From a virus, in IMG/VR virus record IMGVR_UViG_3300047445_000035, positions 1 through 51,293 of that record: 51,293 bases of DNA. The stretch is one strand, 5' to 3'. Of this stretch, positions 9,992 through 18,434 are shown piece by piece. The notes beneath the pieces were generated by a model that saw only the letters and a list, made by a program, of their open reading frames with translations, was not told the origin of the DNA and made no database searches. Numbering within the stretch: the first letter of the stretch is position 1; every line of letters begins with the position of its first letter. Position numbers and translations under genes: made by a program.

Positions 9992-10119
9992 TCTTAAGGC
10001 AGCTTCGCTGCTCTTAAGGATTAATATAACTAACTACTTACATTCATCCTTACGTGCTGCGCCCGCTAACGCTTACGTAAGCTAGTATCGGTTTTTTAAC
10101 CGTTTCTCTACAAATAGGA
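9992..10119 (+). repeat. Structured intergenic element A, related to 48711-48860
   Basis: Begins with a strong hairpin, CTTAAG-GCAGC (9993-10003), loop TTC, GCTGC (10007-10011), one bulged base, CTTAAG (10013-10018). A perfect 12-base palindrome GCTTACGTAAGC follows at 10071-10082 and a second hairpin CGGTT-TTTT-AACCG at 10089-10102. Order and wording (hairpin, TTACATTC, CTAGTA, a T run, TCTCTACAA) recur at 48711-48860. It directly precedes the amide-bond cassette and may control it. Confidence 0.55.
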
Positions 10120-10126
10120 GTAAAAA

Positions 10127-11902
10127 ATGTTTAAAATTGGTGATGTTGTAGCTCTTAAGCGTGAATTTGCACATAATTATGGTGCTGTTCATCCGGGTCG
10201 TGACTATACCGTTCTGAAAGTTAGCCCTAATGGTCGCTTCCAAGTGGATAACGGTAATGACTTTGCAGATTACATCCCTGAACGGTTTTCTCTTGTGCGT
10301 CCAGCTATTGTTCCTGCCGAAGGCGTTATTAAGCTCCGTGTAATCGAAGCCTATCGTCCTGCTCGTCTTCGCCTTGGTGACATTGTCACTGTTGCGAAGG
10401 AACATGCTACTACGTATCTCCTCGTCGAACACCCAGGTAAGCTGTTTAAGAAGGTACGGTTTGAGGTTGTACAGCAAGCTGTTCCTGCCCCCGTTCCTAA
10501 CATTCCTGCTCGTAGGGTGAAGATTGGGGATAAGATTAAAGTGGCTAATGTATATCGTGCTACTGGCCCACATGGTGGAGACAGGAAAGGTAATCCTTGG
10601 GGTTATACTGATAAGCTGCTGTCTCTTAACCAAGTAGTTACTGTCATGTCGGCTGAACCTGCTGATTACGGTGGCTATAAGGGAACAAAGATTAGGGTTG
10701 ATAAGGTTGGCTATAATTATTATTCCTATCCCCTCGATGCATTCGTGTTTGAGGATGGTTCCCTGATTGTAGGGGGCTTTGTACCTGCGGCAAAAGCTCC
10801 TCGTCCTGTTGGTGAGAACGTTAAGGCGGGTGAGAAGGTTGTTATTGTAAGCATTCCAGAAGTGTTTGCTGATAAATATCACCAGCGTCATAAGGTGAAA
10901 GACTCGTGCATTGGTAAGGTGTTTGAGATTAAATACGACTACACCACAGCACATAAAGACGGGCGATATGCCTATGTCTCTGGTATGGCTGCTCATGCCG
11001 GTCAAGACACCATCGCATTCCCAATTAAATGCTTGGTGTATGCAGACGAGGGCAGTGCTATCACGAATGCCAAGCCTGTCCCTCCTCCAAAGAAAGTGTT
11101 GCCTAACATATTCGATGAGATTGCTAAAGCTCCTACTGGTTCCCTTTGCCAGTACATCTACCTCAAGAAAGGGGCTGATGAATATATTGAAGACTTCTCT
11201 GCCCCTTGTTATGCCTCTCTGGGCCGTACAGGGGGCCCTGTAGAGCGTTTGGTGATTGGTATGGCTAAACCATATGCACGCCTCCCAGAACGCTCCCATG
11301 AGGCTTATAATCGCTGGCTGGAATATGTTGTAGAACAATCCCCATTCCGTTCTGCCTTCATCACTAAGACAGCAGATGAAGCTAAGAAGGGTTTGGAAAT
11401 GGATTGCTCCAAGAGCGTAGATGAAATCATCTGCTCTGCTACAGCTATGCGGGATGGCTATGAGCATAATGAGCGTCTGATTCCATTCACTCATTTCCTG
11501 GATGAAGGCTATTCAGGTCACACTGCCTATCTGCTGGCATTCATGCTGAACTACAATGCTGGTAAGTGGAGCGTATCTGGTATGTCTGATGGTCATAGCA
11601 ATATGGCTGGTGTTCAGAACATGGCTGAAATTATTAAGTTCTTTAAGCAGGGATACCATCGTCCTGAACTTAAAACTAAGAAGCCATTCAATGTAGGGGG
11701 CGGTGCGTATGGCTATTGGGTTAGCGATTGCATTACCAAGAATTACCATGGTAATGCAGTTAAGGGGGAATGTATGCGAGACTTCCTCATCCGTGCATCT
11801 GAAGCTAAGGTGGTAGGTGTAGGATGGAATCAGGCTGTCACCATCACCGAAGACAACGTAAAGAAACTGGCTGACACCCTCGAACAACTCATCAACGAAT
11901 AA
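10127..11902 (+). CDS. Large cassette protein with repeated SH3-like N-terminal modules and unknown C-terminal domain
   Basis: 591 aa, ATG with AGGAG 6 bases upstream. The N-terminal 300 residues look like four small beta-barrel repeats, each opening with a pattern such as FKIGDVVALK, LRLGDIVTVA, VKIGDKIKVA and VKAGEKVVIV, linked by proline-rich spacers (APVPNIPARR, PVPPPKK). Such KOW/SH3-like modules usually bind protein or nucleic acid. The C-terminal 270 residues are of a different, alpha/beta character with HTAYLLAFMLNYNAGKWSVS and NVGGGAYGYWVSDCITK; I recognise no family. First gene of the cassette, closely followed by the class I glutaminase, so it may scaffold or supply the substrate of the ligases. 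Confidence 0.8.
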   Translation: MFKIGDVVALKREFAHNYGAVHPGRDYTVLKVSPNGRFQVDNGNDFADYIPERFSLVRPAIVPAEGVIKLRVIEAYRPARLRLGDIVTVAKEHATTYLLVEHPGKLFKKVRFEVVQQAVPAPVPNIPARRVKIGDKIKVANVYRATGPHGGDRKGNPWGYTDKLLSLNQVVTVMSAEPADYGGYKGTKIRVDKVGYNYYSYPLDAFVFEDGSLIVGGFVPAAKAPRPVGENVKAGEKVVIVSIPEVFADKYHQRHKVKDSCIGKVFEIKYDYTTAHKDGRYAYVSGMAAHAGQDTIAFPIKCLVYADEGSAITNAKPVPPPKKVLPNIFDEIAKAPTGSLCQYIYLKKGADEYIEDFSAPCYASLGRTGGPVERLVIGMAKPYARLPERSHEAYNRWLEYVVEQSPFRSAFITKTADEAKKGLEMDCSKSVDEIICSATAMRDGYEHNERLIPFTHFLDEGYSGHTAYLLAFMLNYNAGKWSVSGMSDGHSNMAGVQNMAEIIKFFKQGYHRPELKTKKPFNVGGGAYGYWVSDCITKNYHGNAVKGECMRDFLIRASEAKVVGVGWNQAVTITEDNVKKLADTLEQLINE

Positions 11903-11912
11903 GGAGAAACAC

Positions 11913-12530
11913 ATGAAGAAGGTATTGATTATTAATGGCAGTGGTGCTTACATCCAGTTGTTTAAGGAACTGGGCTTTGAAGTGACACATAATGCGGGGA
12001 AAGCCAACTTGGCTGTGTTCACTGGTGGTGCCGATGTTACACCGGCCCTGTATGGTGACAAGCAACATCAATTTACTGGCATTGATTCTCACCGTGATGA
12101 GGAAGAGGCAATGTGGTTTAACACTCTTCTTGAACTGAATGTCCCTATGGTGGGTATCTGCCGTGGTGGTCAGTTCCTCAATGTAATGTCTGGTGGTCGT
12201 ATGTATCAGCATGTAGGCAATCACACCCGTTCCCATTCCATCACTGACCTGTACACAGGTGAAACTGTGTATGTCTCTAGTACACATCACCAGATGATGA
12301 TGCCATCTGAGCAAGCTGAGGTTATTGCTGTAGCTTCTGAGGGTGGCTTCCGTGAATGGTATGACGGCCAGGTATTCAAGCGGGATGTGTCTGACCAAGA
12401 CTATGAGGTAGTCTATTACAACCATACCAATGCTCTGTGCTTCCAGCCCCATCCTGAATTCAATGGTGCTGAATACGAAGGTATGAAGCGTTATTTCCAA
12501 CATCTGCTGTCTGCATATCTGGGGGTGTAA
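11913..12530 (+). CDS. Class I glutamine amidotransferase-like protein (peptidase C26 / PuuD type)
   Basis: 205 aa, ATG after AAGGAGAAACAC. The triad is intact: Cys83 in GICRGGQFLN, the nucleophile elbow, and His180 with Glu182 in PHPEF. FTGGADVTP at 36-44 is typical of the family. Members either release ammonia from glutamine or hydrolyse gamma-glutamyl amides, as PuuD does with gamma-glutamyl-GABA. In this cassette it could feed ammonia to a ligase or trim a gamma-glutamyl product; which one cannot be decided. No separate synthetase domain is fused. The family call is firm. Confidence 0.88.
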   Translation: MKKVLIINGSGAYIQLFKELGFEVTHNAGKANLAVFTGGADVTPALYGDKQHQFTGIDSHRDEEEAMWFNTLLELNVPMVGICRGGQFLNVMSGGRMYQHVGNHTRSHSITDLYTGETVYVSSTHHQMMMPSEQAEVIAVASEGGFREWYDGQVFKRDVSDQDYEVVYYNHTNALCFQPHPEFNGAEYEGMKRYFQHLLSAYLGV

Positions 12531-12531
12531 T

Positions 12532-12906
12532 ATGACTGAACATGAGTTTGCTATTAAGTATGGCTTCCACAGCACTTACTACCTCCGTCAATCGGATGAC
12601 CATCTCCCTTGCTTTGCTCATCGTTGGTCTGTAAACGACAACATTAAGACGGAGAAAGCTATCACGGAATACATTCAGGTGGCTACGGATAATGATGACA
12701 ATGATGTTATTGTCTTCTCCGTCACTGAAAATGACAAGGGATGGAACGCTTGGAAAGCTTACGCTAAGAAATATCCTCGTAAGTTTAAGGTGGTAGAGGG
12801 TGGAAGTATTCACGGTAAGTATCTGTGCCGTATGTACATCTACACTAAGCCTCCTAAGAAACGTAAGTTCCATCCCGATAACATCAAGGCTTTTAAACCT
12901 CGTTAA
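12532..12906 (+). CDS. 124-aa cassette protein, unknown
   Basis: Starts one base after the glutaminase stop. Sequence features: MTEHEFAIKYGFHSTYYLRQ at the start, an acidic middle (QVATDNDDNDVIVFS) and a basic end (TKPPKKRKFHPDNIKAFKP). It contains a GCTATCACG copy at 12658 reading Ala-Ile-Thr. No domain recognised. Its tight placement between two cassette enzymes suggests a role in the same pathway, but that is only guilt by association. Confidence 0.7.
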   Translation: MTEHEFAIKYGFHSTYYLRQSDDHLPCFAHRWSVNDNIKTEKAITEYIQVATDNDDNDVIVFSVTENDKGWNAWKAYAKKYPRKFKVVEGGSIHGKYLCRMYIYTKPPKKRKFHPDNIKAFKPR

Positions 12907-12914
12907 GAAACATT

Positions 12915-12991
12915 CTCACCTTAGCTCAGTTGGATAGAGCACGAGCCTTCTAAGCTTGTGGTCACTGGTTCGATTCCAGTAGGTGAGGCCA
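12915..12991 (+). tRNA. tRNA-Arg (anticodon UCU)
   Basis: 77 nt cloverleaf: acceptor CTCACCT / AGGTGAG, D arm GCTC...GAGC, anticodon stem CGAGC / GCTTG with loop CTTCTAA (anticodon TCT), T arm ACTGG / CCAGT with TTCGATT, discriminator G and an encoded CCA. It decodes AGA, a rare codon in many proteobacteria. It sits inside the cassette, between two coding genes and in the same direction, so it is probably cut from the operon transcript. Confidence 0.93.
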
Positions 12992-13115: not shown

Positions 13116-13805
13116 ATGAAAATCTGTGTTCTCTATCCCGATGCATGTAGTGAGAGTGCTAGGGAATTAGCTAGGGCTTTAGGAGCCACAGCAGCTAATC
13201 CGTACAAAGACTATGCACCAAGGGCTGATTGGTATTTCAATTATGGTACGGAAGAGAATGCTTCCCTCCGTAAGCAGATTAATACAGGTGGTGCTGTTCT
13301 TCGTTGTATTGATAAGCATCGTACATTTGAAAAGCTTAGTCATGCTGGTGTTCCTGTTCCAACATTCACTACTGATTCAAAGGTAGCTAGTAAATGGGAA
13401 CGTGTTGTATGTCGTTCTACCGTTGAAGGACGGGGTAATGAGGGTATGTCCTATTGGTATCAATGGGATGGTGGCAAGCCACGAGGTAAATTATTTACCG
13501 AATATTTTGAGCACGTAGCTGAATACCGCATCGTTGTATTCATGGGTAAGGTTGTTGGTCGTTATCGTAAGGACATTCAGCCTAACGGTAATTGGAATTT
13601 CACATTGATGACCTTGATTGGCTTCAGGGATGTGGATAGGAGCTGTATACAGGCCGCACAAGCCCTTGGAATTGATTATGTGGGGTTTGATGTGCTTGAG
13701 AATAAAAAGGGCGTATACGTCGTTCTAGAGGCTAATAGCGGCCCTATTCTTACTGAGGAAAGTAAGAAGGCTATTGTTAAACATTTTAAACAACTGAATA
13801 AATAA
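13116..13805 (+). CDS. ATP-grasp ligase 1 (RimK-like)
   Basis: 229 aa. ATP-grasp enzymes join a carboxylate to an amine through an acylphosphate. Visible marks: CIDKHRTFEKL at 64-74 where the central domain begins, TEYFEHVAEYRIVVFMGKVV at 128-147 with the EYR-V-GK pattern, and VLEANSGP at 203-210, in which Glu205 and Asn207 match the metal-binding E-x-N; Asp192 is likely another ligand. The N-terminal 60 residues form a short Rossmann-like start (MKICVLYPDA). At 229 aa it is shorter than RimK (about 300) but resembles ATP-grasp 2 of this cassette (17661-18434), suggesting an old duplication. Confidence 0.85.
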   Translation: MKICVLYPDACSESARELARALGATAANPYKDYAPRADWYFNYGTEENASLRKQINTGGAVLRCIDKHRTFEKLSHAGVPVPTFTTDSKVASKWERVVCRSTVEGRGNEGMSYWYQWDGGKPRGKLFTEYFEHVAEYRIVVFMGKVVGRYRKDIQPNGNWNFTLMTLIGFRDVDRSCIQAAQALGIDYVGFDVLENKKGVYVVLEANSGPILTEESKKAIVKHFKQLNK

Positions 13806-13815
13806 GGAGCATCAT

Positions 13816-15123
13816 ATGTGTGGCATCGTTGGTATGGCAGGTAATATTCTCCCAGTGCATGAACGTGCAATGAAGACGCTGTTAGTTCTTGATTCCCTCC
13901 GTGGTGAGGACAGCACCGGGATTGTGTGTGTAGGTAAATGGAAGGATTGTGAAGTTAAGCTAGCCAAGAGTGTTGGCGATCCCTTTCAATTGTTTGACCA
14001 TAAGAGCTATGAGAATGCTATGCAAGGTTCTCAACGTGTCATCATTGGTCACAATCGTGCTGCCACGAGTGGTGCTGTAACACGTAATAATGCTCATCCA
14101 TTTGATCATCCTACCCTTGTTGGTGTACACAATGGTACGCTGAAGAACAAGCATGTCCTGGATGATGCTAAGGATTATAAGGTGGACAGTGATAATCTGT
14201 ACCACCACATTGAGAAGAGTGGGCTTCGTGACGCCATGAATAAGGTTGATGGTGCATGGGCCTTGGTATGGTGGGATAAGGTTGAGCATGAGCTTAACAT
14301 CCTGCGTAATAAGGAACGTCCTCTGTGGACTTGTGTAACTGCGGATAAGGATGGCAATCCTGATTTCAATGTAATCTTCTGGGCTTCTGAACCTTGGATG
14401 TTGCGGGTAGCGCTATCACGTCACGGTATTCAGACGGATACGCCAGTAGAAATTGATGAAGATGTACATGTACGTGTACCTATTCAGGATGGTGGTAAGC
14501 TTGGTAAGCCCACTATGGTGCCAATGGCTGGTACGTATAAGGATGCTTACCAAAATTTTACTCAAGGCCATGGCTATAGGGGGAATGTCCATCAACTGCC
14601 TAACAACTCCCATACCAAGCCTCAGGAGGACAAAACGCTCAGCGTAACAAAAAAGCTGGTAGAAGAAAGTCAAAGCTTCGTGGCAAGTTGCAACAACAAA
14701 TATCTGCAAGCGAAGAACGTGGTGTTCGAGATCATGGAAGGACGCAACGACAAGCGGGGAGAAGAATACTTGTTGATGTTTGACAAGAACATGCCTTATG
14801 ACGAGATTCGTGTTTATCCACGTAAGGATGACGAGATTTGGGACTTCGTAGGGGGTGAGTGTCAAGCAGACATTCAAGGCTATGCACAGCACGATCTGAC
14901 GCCTTCTAAGGGCTATTACACAGTGAGGGCAACCACTGTGAAGATTCTCCCTGTGTTGCTGGAGAAAACCCCTCCAAAAATCATGAAGGGTCAAACCTGT
15001 GACTGGTGTTCTGACCCACTGGATGAAAAGGTTTACAACCGCACTACAACTACCGGGGGCTGTTTCTGCCCTCATTGTGCAAAAGAACGTGATGTAACTT
15101 CGATGGTTACTTTTTCTAATTAA
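13816..15123 (+). CDS. Class II (Ntn) glutamine amidotransferase with C-terminal zinc-ribbon-like tail
   Basis: 435 aa. MCGIVG at the start exposes Cys2, the Ntn nucleophile, after removal of Met1. RGEDSTGI (29-36), GHNRAATSG (78-86) and HNGTL (105-109) are the glutamine-binding and oxyanion motifs of the GlmS/PurF glutaminase domain. The sugar-isomerase or PRTase domain usual in those enzymes is missing. Instead, residues 250-435 are unfamiliar and end in a putative zinc ribbon (Cys395, Cys398, Cys418, Cys421). It should make ammonia for a partner, most likely one of the ligases downstream. Ten bases separate it from ATP-grasp 1. Confidence 0.88.
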   Translation: MCGIVGMAGNILPVHERAMKTLLVLDSLRGEDSTGIVCVGKWKDCEVKLAKSVGDPFQLFDHKSYENAMQGSQRVIIGHNRAATSGAVTRNNAHPFDHPTLVGVHNGTLKNKHVLDDAKDYKVDSDNLYHHIEKSGLRDAMNKVDGAWALVWWDKVEHELNILRNKERPLWTCVTADKDGNPDFNVIFWASEPWMLRVALSRHGIQTDTPVEIDEDVHVRVPIQDGGKLGKPTMVPMAGTYKDAYQNFTQGHGYRGNVHQLPNNSHTKPQEDKTLSVTKKLVEESQSFVASCNNKYLQAKNVVFEIMEGRNDKRGEEYLLMFDKNMPYDEIRVYPRKDDEIWDFVGGECQADIQGYAQHDLTPSKGYYTVRATTVKILPVLLEKTPPKIMKGQTCDWCSDPLDEKVYNRTTTTGGCFCPHCAKERDVTSMVTFSN

Positions 15124-15134
15124 GGAGCTTTAAA

Positions 15135-15932
15135 ATGTCTCAGCTGATTCTCGTTGGTGCTGATCCGGAAGTGTTTGTTAAACAGAATGGTGTATTCCGT
15201 TCTGCCTACAACCTCATCAAAGGTGATAAGAAAAACCCATATAAGGTGAAGAATGGCGCAGTACAAGTGGATGGTATGGCTTTGGAATTTAATATCGATC
15301 CAGCTGCTACCGAAGATGAATTCTGCATTAATATTCAATCTGTGTATGACCAGCTCAAAGCTATGGTACCAGATTATCAGGTGATTGCCACACCTGTTGC
15401 AGACTTCCCATTTGAATATCTGAAAACTCAGCCCAAGGAAGCTCTTGAACTGGGTTGCGATCCAGACTTCAATGCTTGGAATGGCCAAGCCAATCCTCGC
15501 CCTGATGGTGAGCGTCCTATGCGTACTGCATCTGGTCACGTTCACATTGGTTTTACTAACGGGGAAAGCAGCAATGACTACAATCACGTACAGAAATGTA
15601 ATGCTGTAGTTAAACAACTCGACTTCTTCCTGGGCTTGCCTAGCCTGATTTATGACGGTGATGTACGTCGTCGTGAAATGTATGGTAAGGCTGGTGCTTG
15701 TCGTTACAAGCCTTACGGTGTGGAATATCGTACCCTGTCTAATGCTTGGCTGAATAGCCGGGAACTGATGGCATGGGTATTTCGCTCCGCCCAAAAGGGT
15801 GTTCAGGAACTGATTGCTGGTAATTCTCTGTATGAGAAGTATGGGGACATCCAAGCTATCATTAATTCCTCGGACGTTAAAGAAGCCAAGAAGATTATCA
15901 AAGCTGAGAAACTGGAGATTTGCTATGGCTAA
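15135..15932 (+). CDS. phiEco32-type COOH-NH2 ligase (glutamine-synthetase fold)
   Basis: 265 aa. Matches the family known as phage phiEco32-like COOH-NH2 ligase type 2: GADPEVF (8-14), VDGMALEF (45-52), SGHVHIGF (133-140) and RRREMYGKAGACRYKPYGVE (178-197), the metal- and ATP-binding strands of a glutamine-synthetase-like barrel. Enzymes of this superfamily use ATP to form an amide between a carboxyl and an amino group or ammonia. Substrate unknown. It follows the class II glutaminase by 11 bases and overlaps the next gene by 8, so a glutaminase-ligase pair is likely. Confidence 0.85.
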   Translation: MSQLILVGADPEVFVKQNGVFRSAYNLIKGDKKNPYKVKNGAVQVDGMALEFNIDPAATEDEFCINIQSVYDQLKAMVPDYQVIATPVADFPFEYLKTQPKEALELGCDPDFNAWNGQANPRPDGERPMRTASGHVHIGFTNGESSNDYNHVQKCNAVVKQLDFFLGLPSLIYDGDVRRREMYGKAGACRYKPYGVEYRTLSNAWLNSRELMAWVFRSAQKGVQELIAGNSLYEKYGDIQAIINSSDVKEAKKIIKAEKLEICYG

Positions 15933-16542
15933 GCCACCAAGCATGGAAGATTTGAAGACAATGTATCAGAATTGTCTGGTTATTGTTAAAAATAAGCCAT
16001 ATCTTGTCAACCGAATCTATGACCATCTGCGTTATGGCGTATTCGATTTGTCTGACCAGCGTAACAAGGACATCACTGTTACGTCTCACACTGATCTGAA
16101 GGCTCCAAGTCGTTGCTTTGGCTTTGTGAACATTGGTGGTGTTGTCTATTATCTGTCACGCCTCCCGGTACGTCGCTATAAGGCTGGTGCATGTGGTAAT
16201 GACAATATGCAATTTGAATCGCCTGATGACTATCGTGGCATTGCAGCTAACGTGAATGTTGATCCAATGTACAACCTCACTAGCCCACATGTAGCTGACA
16301 CAATCTACAATCGCTATCCATCCATTGTTGATGCTGTGGAACGCTGCAAGGCTGGTGATAAGATTGTTGCCTTCGACCGTCAATTCGCTGTTGACCATCG
16401 CGGCTATGTCTATTACAAGCTGTCTTGTGTAGGCAAAGTGGCTAAGCCTAAAACCGTTTACGACATTGCCTTTACCAAAGGCCGTGAATATCTCATCACT
16501 CTTCTGGACAACAATCATGAAAAAAGTATTCCAACTGCTTAA
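15925..16542 (+). CDS. 205-aa cassette protein between the two amidoligases, unknown
   Basis: The ATG at 15925 overlaps the stop of the upstream ligase and has GGAG 8 bases upstream. It starts MAKPPSMEDLKTMYQNCLVI and contains PSRCFGFVNIGGVVYYLSRL, RRYKAGACGNDNMQF and VAFDRQFAVDHRGYVYYKLS. It has a mixed alpha/beta look with many aromatic residues; no family is recognised. The gene after it overlaps by 26 bases, so all three are translated together. It is always a candidate for substrate binding or for being the acceptor that is modified. Confidence 0.75.
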   Translation: MAKPPSMEDLKTMYQNCLVIVKNKPYLVNRIYDHLRYGVFDLSDQRNKDITVTSHTDLKAPSRCFGFVNIGGVVYYLSRLPVRRYKAGACGNDNMQFESPDDYRGIAANVNVDPMYNLTSPHVADTIYNRYPSIVDAVERCKAGDKIVAFDRQFAVDHRGYVYYKLSCVGKVAKPKTVYDIAFTKGREYLITLLDNNHEKSIPTA

Positions 16543-17659
16543 GAAAGACGCCCCAATCAAGGGTGAAGTAGGTATTGAAATCGAATGTGAAGGCAAGAAC
16601 ATGGTGCCTGTCGATTTCGGTGGTTGGAAGACGGAGGATGATGGTTCCCTGCGGGGCCATTTCCCTGATTCCCGTGCTGAATATGTACTGGCCAAGCCTA
16701 TTATGGCTAAGGAAGTGCAAGAGAAGGTTGACTTCCTGCGTACTGAACTGAAGGAAGCAACGCTTGACTTCTCCTTCCGTACCTCTGTTCATATACACAT
16801 CAACGTACAAGACCTCACTGAAGCTCAGGTGATGAATTTTGTGTACACCTACCTACTGCTGGAAGAACCAATGGTGAACTTCTGTGGACGGGAACGTAAG
16901 GGCAATCGCTTCTGTCTGCGTATTGCCGATGCAGAAGGCATCATCGGCTATTACAGCAAGATGTTTGCTAAGGGCTTGGCCTACATCATGGCTGTGAATG
17001 AGAATGACCTTCGTTATGCTGGCATCAACCTGGCTAGCCTGAAGAAATATGGCAGCATTGAATTCCGTTCTATGCGTGGCTGTATGGATGCTGAAACGCT
17101 CCACATCTGGGCTAATAGCTTGATGGCTATTAAAAAATATGCGGAAGAGAAGAAAGTTCCTCTGGATATCAATCGGGAGTTTAGCAATGGTGCTCCTCGT
17201 GACTTCCTCCGCACTGTCTTGGGTGAATACGCTGTGTATTTTGAATATCCTCGTATGGCTAAGGAGATTCAGCGTAGCTTCTCTCTGACTCTTGAGCTTC
17301 CTTATATGTATAAGGAACAAGTGTACAAGGAAGAAGTGGCCTTGGAGGCTAAACAAAAGAGGGCTGACAATATTCCAGAACATCTTGTAGATCAACACAA
17401 GGAATTCATGGTAAGCCATATGTGGAACGGAGTTATCGGGGATAACATGTCAGACTTCGAGATTCGTGGAGCTCGCCTCTTTGTCAAGTATCAAGGTAAC
17501 TGGGTTGATGCAACCATTGCAAACAAGAAGGACATTGCCTTTGTAGAAGCTTGGCAAGCAGCTAAACAACCTGCACCAGCACAACCAGAGCCAGAACAAG
17601 CTCCTGCTGTACGTCCAGCCCGTCCTCGTCGTCCTGTTGCTCAACCAGTGGAGTTCTAA
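16517..17659 (+). CDS. Amidoligase (COOH-NH2 ligase, glutamine-synthetase fold) with proline-rich tail
   Basis: 380 aa from the ATG at 16517 (weak GGA site; overlaps the previous gene by 26 bases). GEVGIEIECEG (16-26), DDGSLRG (41-47), EYVLAKP (55-61), SVHIHINV (90-97) and GINLASLKKYGSIEFRSMRG (169-188) are the order and residues of the amidoligase family predicted to form amide links using ammonia or an amine. About 25 residues at the C-terminus are rich in Pro, Ala and Arg (PAPAQPEPEQAPAVRPARPR), an unstructured tail that could bind a partner. A second glutamine-synthetase-fold ligase lies two genes upstream, so two different amide bonds may be made. Confidence 0.87.
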   Translation: MKKVFQLLKKDAPIKGEVGIEIECEGKNMVPVDFGGWKTEDDGSLRGHFPDSRAEYVLAKPIMAKEVQEKVDFLRTELKEATLDFSFRTSVHIHINVQDLTEAQVMNFVYTYLLLEEPMVNFCGRERKGNRFCLRIADAEGIIGYYSKMFAKGLAYIMAVNENDLRYAGINLASLKKYGSIEFRSMRGCMDAETLHIWANSLMAIKKYAEEKKVPLDINREFSNGAPRDFLRTVLGEYAVYFEYPRMAKEIQRSFSLTLELPYMYKEQVYKEEVALEAKQKRADNIPEHLVDQHKEFMVSHMWNGVIGDNMSDFEIRGARLFVKYQGNWVDATIANKKDIAFVEAWQAAKQPAPAQPEPEQAPAVRPARPRRPVAQPVEF

Positions 17660-17660
17660 C

Positions 17661-18434
17661 ATGAAGATTTATTCCTACAACAATGGCTCGGCTAGTGCGA
17701 AAGCACTGGCTGCTGCCCTCAACATCAAGCTGGTTAAACATGAAGGAAAGCCTCTCCGCTTTAAAGGCCCTCTTATTAATTGGGGCAATAGCAAGCCTAT
17801 TGCTCGTCATATTGAATGTGGGGGCTGTCTCAATCCACCCGATGCCGTTAGGAACGCTGTAAACAAACTACAAGCGTTTAAATTAATGGAGGGAAAGGTA
17901 GCCCTACCGGGCTGGACAGAAGACCGTGAAGAGGCTATAAAGTGGCTTGCTGGGGATTTTGATGTAGTTGTCCGACATAAGCTTAATGGTCACAGTGCAG
18001 AAGGGCTGGAGATTGTTAAGCACAATGATCCAGATGTTATTCCATTTGCCCCTCTCTACACCAAGTACATCAAGAAAGACCAGGAATGGCGTATTCACGT
18101 ATTCAAAGGGAAGGTGTTCTTTGAACAGCGTAAAGCTCGTAAGAAGGATGTTCCTGATGAAGAAGTGAACTGGCAGGTACGTAACTTGAAGGGTGGTTTC
18201 ATCTATGCCCATCAGGATGTACAAGCAAGTGAGGAAGTGAAGAAGCAAGCTATCATGGCTATTGATGCATTGGGGCTTGATTTCGGAGCTGTAGACATCA
18301 TCACTAACAAGCGTGGAGAAGCTTATGTCCTCGAAGTTAATACAGCCTGTGGGCTCGAAGGTACCACGCTGGCTAAATACGTTGAACAGTTTAGAGGTTT
18401 GGAAGCCAACAAGCCTCTGGAGAACAATCCGTGA
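17661..18434 (+). CDS. ATP-grasp ligase 2
   Basis: 257 aa, ATG at 17661 with GGAG 8 bases upstream. YTKYIKKDQEWRIHVFKGKV (133-152) matches the EYRIVVFMGKVV region of ATP-grasp 1, and YVLEVNTACGLEGTT (222-236) holds the metal-binding E225-x-N227; Asp212 is the preceding acidic ligand. The N-terminal 60 residues contain WGNSKPIARHIECGGCLNPP, a cysteine-bearing stretch absent from ATP-grasp 1. Substrate unknown, probably a peptide or amino acid. Last enzyme of the cassette. Confidence 0.85.
   Translation: MKIYSYNNGSASAKALAAALNIKLVKHEGKPLRFKGPLINWGNSKPIARHIECGGCLNPPDAVRNAVNKLQAFKLMEGKVALPGWTEDREEAIKWLAGDFDVVVRHKLNGHSAEGLEIVKHNDPDVIPFAPLYTKYIKKDQEWRIHVFKGKVFFEQRKARKKDVPDEEVNWQVRNLKGGFIYAHQDVQASEEVKKQAIMAIDALGLDFGAVDIITNKRGEAYVLEVNTACGLEGTTLAKYVEQFRGLEANKPLENNP

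Follow-up and report, generated by a model that had tools for sequence, protein, structure and literature searches.

Knowledge of the phage amidoligase cassette goes back more than 15 years, and Iyer 2009 and Hardies 2013 are said to be the founding papers on this amidoligase or peptidoglycan modification cassette. Accounts of RIO-1-like podoviruses and their relatives describe, in the parts available to us, a "peptidoglycan modification cassette" for which superinfection exclusion or preparation for lysis has been proposed, and they name RIO-1, CW02, phiEco32, 7-11, PA11 and LUZ24 among its carriers (PMC5498523, PMC11945000, PMC10580990). Modification of peptidoglycan by the product of the cassette is a published hypothesis in the sections available (PMC5498523, PMC11945000), and both that product and its purpose, a change in the cell wall or superinfection exclusion, are presented there as proposals. 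In the same sections the genes named are the ligases, the glutaminase, the ATP-grasp ligase and gamma-glutamyl cyclotransferase (GGCT), not the gene that leads the cassette (PMC5498523, PMC11945000, PMC10580990); Iyer 2009 and Hardies 2013 may list it. The cassette itself is already known, and its lead component is known only as PHROG entries of unknown function.

The window considered here spans the whole of a 51,293-base virus record, and its gene content resembles that of Zobellviridae podoviruses (primase/helicase, DNA polymerase and amidoligase cassette). Its cassette has the same ligases, glutaminases and ATP-grasp ligases as the phiEco32-like amidoligase cassette, which often includes GGCT. 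The lead-gene family, called FAM below, is carried, or probably carried, upstream of the ligases in RIO-1, CW02, phiEco32, 7-11, PA11 and LUZ24.

The cassette and its lead gene

Matches to PF14395, PF12224, RimK and GATase_6 at 13116-18434 identify the genes of the window as a phage amidoligase cassette. The features are:

10116-10120, plus strand: AGGAG, a likely ribosome-binding site read from the sequence, before the ATG at 10127
10127-11902, plus strand: 591-aa lead gene of the amidoligase cassette, family FAM, related to PHROG 34254 (open reading frame, PHROG match, synteny)
11913-12530, plus strand: class-I glutamine amidotransferase (GATase)/peptidase C26-like gene of the PuuD-like superfamily, starting 10 bp after the lead gene (profile matches)
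12532-12906, plus strand: 124-aa gene found only in the cassettes of near relatives (Pfam, PHROG, synteny)
12915-12991, plus strand: tRNA-Arg (TCT) inside the cassette
13116-13805, plus strand: RimK-like ATP-grasp ligase, first copy (Pfam, PHROG, NCBIfam)
13816-15123, plus strand: class-II glutamine amidotransferase with a C-terminal CxxC...CxxC tail and a GATase_6 match (profile matches, alignment)
15135-15932, plus strand: phiEco32-like COOH-NH2 ligase type 2, PF14395 (profile matches, alignment)
15928-16542, plus strand: conserved cassette gene of about 200 aa, phrog_11055, start approximate (synteny, PHROG)
16466-17659, plus strand: Amidoligase_2, PF12224, whose real start may be near 16511 (Pfam, PHROG)
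17637-18434, plus strand: RimK-like ATP-grasp ligase, second copy (Pfam, PHROG, NCBIfam)

The 591-aa frame on the plus strand is free of internal stops in translation, and an opposite-strand ORF of 470 aa (10082-11494) is taken to be its mechanical mirror. The original prediction had placed this gene at the head of a ligase cassette, and the gene order, with a class-I GATase directly downstream, bears this out. Among cassette loci, as judged from profiles for each neighbour, the order is nearly fixed: FAM, class-I GATase, in some the 124-aa gene and the first ATP-grasp ligase, class-II GATase, COOH-NH2 ligase, the gene of about 200 aa, amidoligase, second ATP-grasp ligase and primase. Among Zobellviridae-like phages there are 98 distinct amidoligase cassettes that have a class-I GATase together with 1.5 kb or more of upstream sequence, and 94 of them carry FAM immediately 5' of this GATase. 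The lead gene is a near-constant member of the podovirus amidoligase cassette, and distant phage groups keep it beside the same ligases. When bacterial and archaeal genomes were scanned with the ligase, 12 loci were found, three of which have FAM (L183-L185); all three are phage-type cassettes, and within the scanned genomes the family looks phage-specific.

The chemistry encoded around FAM comprises two GS-fold amidoligases, one or two RimK-like ATP-grasp ligases, two glutaminases and, in about one fifth of cassettes, GGCT. Of 96 cassette loci, 21 contain a GGCT gene, which frequently sits immediately 5' of FAM; the two genes are also adjacent in RIO-1 and Slicky01. The idea that GGCT and class-I GATase replace one another was rejected, since both are present in 19 of the 96 cassettes. 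The models nearest to the class-I GATase are those of gamma-glutamyl-GABA hydrolase and gamma-glutamyl-CDP-amidate hydrolase, with scores far below their cut-offs, which places it at superfamily level only. The PuuD-type gamma-glutamyl hydrolase and GGCT genes are neighbours of the lead gene and not its homologues. Gamma-glutamyl intermediates are familiar from the PuuA/PuuD and glutathione pathways, and by analogy these neighbours suggest that such intermediates may also arise here.

Other components of the cassette deserve mention. The phrog_11055 gene at 15928-16542 stands between COOH-NH2 ligase and amidoligase in almost every cassette seen and is as constant as the lead gene. The class-II glutaminases share an invariant, zinc-ribbon-like CxxC...CxxC tail (residues 395, 398, 418 and 421 in the window). 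The two RimK-like ATP-grasp ligases of the window have diverged from each other, and the first is present in only part of the relatives. A tRNA-Arg is also annotated in the related phages PPAT, CW02 and phiEco32.

The C-terminal domain and its relatives

The lead protein is laid out as four predicted SH3/KOW-like barrels joined by proline-rich linkers, followed by a domain of about 270 residues. The features of this domain are:

11090-11899, plus strand: conserved C-terminal domain, residues 322-591, of unmatched fold (conservation, confident model, structure searches)
11207-11209, plus strand: codon of Cys361, conserved in 97 of 97 sequences (two independent alignments)
11450-11452, plus strand: codon of Arg442, 97 of 97 (two independent alignments)
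11462-11464, plus strand: codon of Glu446, 94 of 97 (two independent alignments)
11594-11596, plus strand: codon of His490, 97 of 97 (two independent alignments)

No Pfam or NCBIfam model matches residues 322-591, and the protein as a whole matches phrog_34254, of unknown function, over residues 393-506 (E 6.6e-5). With the 591-aa protein itself as query no relative turned up in viral contigs, and none did with a subfamily alignment of Pseudomonas members. Relatives were gathered by way of named phages and of the neighbouring ligase and class-II GATase in viral contigs, and were found only through subfamily and neighbour-gene alignments. An iterated profile then recovered 102 distinct sequences with the C-terminal domain, most of them sharing 12-32% identity with the window copy, and conservation was counted on 97 of these at less than 80% identity. 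Beyond the four residues listed above, Ala467 is kept in 87 of 97, Ser405 in 81 and Pro406 in 79; His362 is kept in 64% of the core alignment. A second, independent alignment agrees on the conserved residues. Every one of the 61 aligned relatives matches phrog_34254 at E<=0.001; matches to phrog_27195 were obtained for 44 and to phrog_38092 for 30. These PHROGs cover the lead-gene family and carry no information on function, fold or residues; the window protein has four barrels in addition. At 299430-300911 of MT135025.1 (Vibrio phage V07) there is a lead gene that shares 90% identity with the one in 50-kb Vibrio podoviruses; this 349-kb record may be a composite assembly.

The domain alone was modelled with AlphaFold2 from 73 sequences at high confidence (pLDDT 93.3, pTM 0.91). 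No close likeness to it was found in the PDB, where the best Foldseek match has E 0.38 with query-normalised TM below 0.2, and VIA-align against solved structures gave Z 2.9 at most. Foldseek matches in the PDB to TFIIH, RNA-binding ribosome-assembly proteins, PopP2 and others were rejected at this TM. The sole PDB profile match, to RBL4 (E 0.0015), was attributed to chance, as it comes from a short repeated R-x-x-x-E helix worth 3.7-4.3 bits per copy. The part that had been called an orphan has kept that status: profiles return only PHROGs of unknown function, and Foldseek, VIA-align and profiles give no confident match to a known structural or enzyme family. Predicted viral structures gave 14 matches at E <0.001; among them are proteins of CW02, CVT22, RIO-1 and Proteus phage 3H10_20, and Cronobacter phage GAP52 contributes two distinct proteins.

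More divergent homologues were recognized by profile, with E-values scored as for a search of 20,000 sequences: Slicky01 (E 1.3e-10), RIO-1 gp7 (8.7e-9), Salmonella phage 7-11 gp107 (2.6e-7) and gp106 (3.5e-7), Proteus P59 gp109 (6e-4) and Aeromonas LAh_9 gp57 (2e-3). In 7-11, P59 and LAh_9 two lead-like genes stand in tandem directly upstream of the COOH-NH2 ligase, and in P59 and LAh_9 just one gene of each pair reaches significance. Grimontviridae and Aeromonas phage cassettes have such diverged pairs immediately 5' of the COOH-NH2 ligase (L195:3985-5971, L196:4146-5977, L197:4225-5990), and no class-I GATase is annotated at that place in these loci. In phiEco32 (gp88/gp87) and LUZ24 (gp14/gp15) genes at the same place in the cassette keep a C-F/Y-G motif by eye. 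No significant HMM match was obtained for these four proteins (E >0.4), and hhalign against the family gave E 0.08 for gp87 and 0.24 for gp88. They are likely members of the family because of their position, the Cys motif and the structure matches in Cronobacter phage GAP52, sequence alone falling short of proof. A MAG contig with phiEco32-like cassette order (L187:3713-4480) has, upstream of a class-I GATase, a very diverged lead-gene-like ORF with the motifs CFAQLQ ... RLLNE ... GH.

Throughout the divergent set the Cys motif can be matched by eye and the Arg in most, and Glu and His are often replaced; neither of these two is kept in RIO-1 gp7, 7-11 gp106/gp107, P59 or LAh_9. The C-R-E-H signature is therefore one of the core clade only, and an initial statement that His490 is invariant family-wide was narrowed accordingly, as RIO-1 and the Grimontviridae copies lack it. 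Common to the wider set are only the Cys and, mostly, the Arg.

The N-terminal barrels

The features of residues 1-311 are:

10127-10303, plus strand: SH3/KOW-like barrel 1, residues 1-59 (full-length model, VIA-align, repeat statistics)
10319-10483, plus strand: SH3/KOW-like barrel 2, residues 65-119 (full-length model, VIA-align, repeat statistics)
10499-10792, plus strand: SH3/KOW-like barrel 3, residues 125-222, of lowest confidence (full-length model, repeat statistics)
10805-11059, plus strand: SH3/KOW-like barrel 4, residues 227-311 (full-length model, VIA-align)

Strict matches to the motif [KR]xG[DE]x[VIKL]x[VI] lie at residues 82, 132 and 233, and KIGDVVAL at residue 3, in the first repeat, is a slightly degenerate fourth copy. 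In shuffles of residues 1-320 the mean expectation was 0.024, and three or more matches arose in one of 20,000. Likeness in sequence is clear between repeats 1 and 2 (Z 7.7) and marginal between 2 and 3 (Z 2.8) and 1 and 4 (Z 2.4); the remaining pairs show no significant pairwise Z. The proline-rich linkers are PAIVPAEG, AVPAPVPNIPA, VPAAKAPRPVGE and AKPVPPPKKVLP. In a full-length AlphaFold2 model from a 61-sequence alignment (mean pLDDT 79, pTM 0.57) four small beta-barrels precede a C-terminal domain rich in helices; confidence in the barrels is low to moderate (pLDDT 36-89 in 10-residue blocks). The original prediction of four repeats with proline-rich linkers has held up: the motif exceeds chance, the linkers are present and the repeats are modelled as beta-barrels.

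In fold the predicted barrels resemble SH3-like and KOW small barrels: VIA-align gave PetP (Z 7.0), DSIF KOW6-7 (Z 6.4), spectrin SH3 (Z 6.2) and the Mind bomb repeat (Z 6.1). Such values, at Z 6-7 between modelled and known structures, are suggestive of shared descent and not proof of it, as Z <8 can reflect mere barrel resemblance. Unlike the curated SH3/KOW families, the lead protein has no match to a Pfam SH3 or KOW model (no Pfam family at E<=0.1); weak, sporadic matches to SH3_2, SH3_15 and DUF4537 were seen in single relatives only.

The stretch before the C-terminal domain is shorter than 60 residues in 54 of 102 relatives and at least 220 residues in 17. These extensions range from almost none to about 420 aa and differ even between close relatives, the N-terminal sequence of the window is detectable only in its closest relatives (L022, L021), and barrels are missing or different in most. 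Because extension lengths vary and the shared N-terminus is limited to the closest relatives, the barrels appear to be an optional addition, and the C-terminal domain would therefore carry the constant function of the gene; it, rather than the barrels, is probably the working part of the protein. The four modelled barrels are probably a lineage-specific appendage that binds a partner or target. Recruitment of a substrate by the repeats, as first suggested, does not fit as the conserved role of a family in which more than half the members have an N-terminal stretch shorter than 60 residues, and a binding role of the predicted barrels is possible in this phage itself. Peptidoglycan had been offered as one of the possible substrates, but no signal peptide is evident by eye in the translated lead protein and direct binding is unlikely.

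Function of the conserved domain

We tentatively favour the reading, which may well be right, that the C-terminal domain is the conserved core of the protein and a cysteine-dependent enzyme of undescribed fold, the barrels being lineage-specific. An active site is the best explanation of near-invariant Cys, Arg, Glu and His in members mostly 12-32% identical to the window copy. The products of the neighbouring genes form or cleave gamma-glutamyl and amide bonds, and we infer a cysteine-dependent acyl or amide transfer step, which would have a cytosolic site and serve the gamma-glutamyl/amide chemistry of the cassette. Cys361 lies where a helix starts behind a beta-hairpin. In the proposed mechanism it would take up, as an acyl-thioester, the gamma-glutamyl group, or some other acyl group, that the GS-fold ligases, ATP-grasp ligases and glutaminases make or expose, and would hand it on to an amine or to water. 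Arg442 could bind a carboxylate, and Glu446 and His490 could help in acid-base catalysis. The confident compact model, the synteny with GATase, the GGCT neighbours and the variability of the extensions also count in favour of an enzyme; the loss of Glu and His in divergent homologues and the absence of a known enzyme fold count against it. A conserved Cys followed by a His would be expected of a papain-like or NlpC-type cysteine hydrolase; C361 and H490 are invariant in the 97 core sequences, the His being lost in divergent homologues. Comparison with solved structures gave best PDB values of E 0.38 and Z 2.9, a lack of match that leaves room for such a fold. A more specific version is rather doubtful, namely that the new fold defines a superfamily of cysteine-dependent gamma-glutamyl/acyl transferases confined to phage amidoligase cassettes. 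Such a superfamily would be present once, next to the class-I GATase, in Zobellviridae and as two diverged genes in tandem in Grimontviridae, probably also in phiEco32/LUZ24 relatives, and would supply a missing step of the pathway.

An unlikely alternative, though the one that survives best, widens the recruitment idea of the original prediction to a non-catalytic scaffold or adaptor. The C-terminal domain would hold the cassette enzymes together, for example to channel ammonia from glutaminases to ligases, and the barrels would bind the substrate polymer. FAM almost always adjoins a glutaminase, and its position is kept while Glu and His vary in divergent homologues; SH3/KOW-like barrels commonly bind peptides or RNA. 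Invariant Cys, Arg, Glu and His in the core clade are, however, more typical of an active site, and the barrels are absent or different in most relatives.

It is improbable that the domain is instead an acceptor or carrier for the amidoligase product, like a peptide-carrier protein, with attachment through Cys361 or a side chain close to it. A carrier is not obvious among the cassette genes, which include several ligases, and the Cys motif, as matched by eye in divergent homologues, is the most widely kept feature; but known carriers tend to be small proteins whose modified site is exposed, and here there is a folded domain of about 250 residues with conserved residues spread over 130 positions. 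Quite improbable is a role in host takeover or counter-defence, the gene being no more than a passenger of the cassette. The lead gene does open the cassette after many small early-type genes, and in the available part of the report on Pseudoalteromonas phage HP1 predicted peptidoglycan-modification genes are expressed immediately after infection (PMC7082346), but the gene is closely linked to the ligases across divergent phage groups and none was found in the scanned bacterial genomes outside phage-like contigs. The conserved Cys/His/Glu set could bind metal instead, but a structural zinc site of Cys361, His362, Glu446 and His490, whose residue types would suit it, is very improbable, as His362 (64%) is not invariant, Arg442 is conserved as strongly as Cys361, and the divergent branch lacks Glu and His yet keeps Cys and, mostly, Arg.

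The lead gene adds to the constant parts of the cassette one whose four near-invariant residues can be named and whose domain, modelled with confidence, has no solved relative. The question of its function is now specific and testable, since it concerns a single gene and a single cysteine and since small single-domain relatives (about 250-300 aa) are at hand. Should the domain prove to be an enzyme, it would bring a new fold and a further activity to a pathway of many marine and enteric podoviruses.

Elsewhere in the window, a 145-aa ORF at 23427-23864 matches positions 76-219 of a 247-aa DNA methyltransferase PHROG (phrog_757) and, from this alignment, may be an N-terminally shortened methyltransferase.
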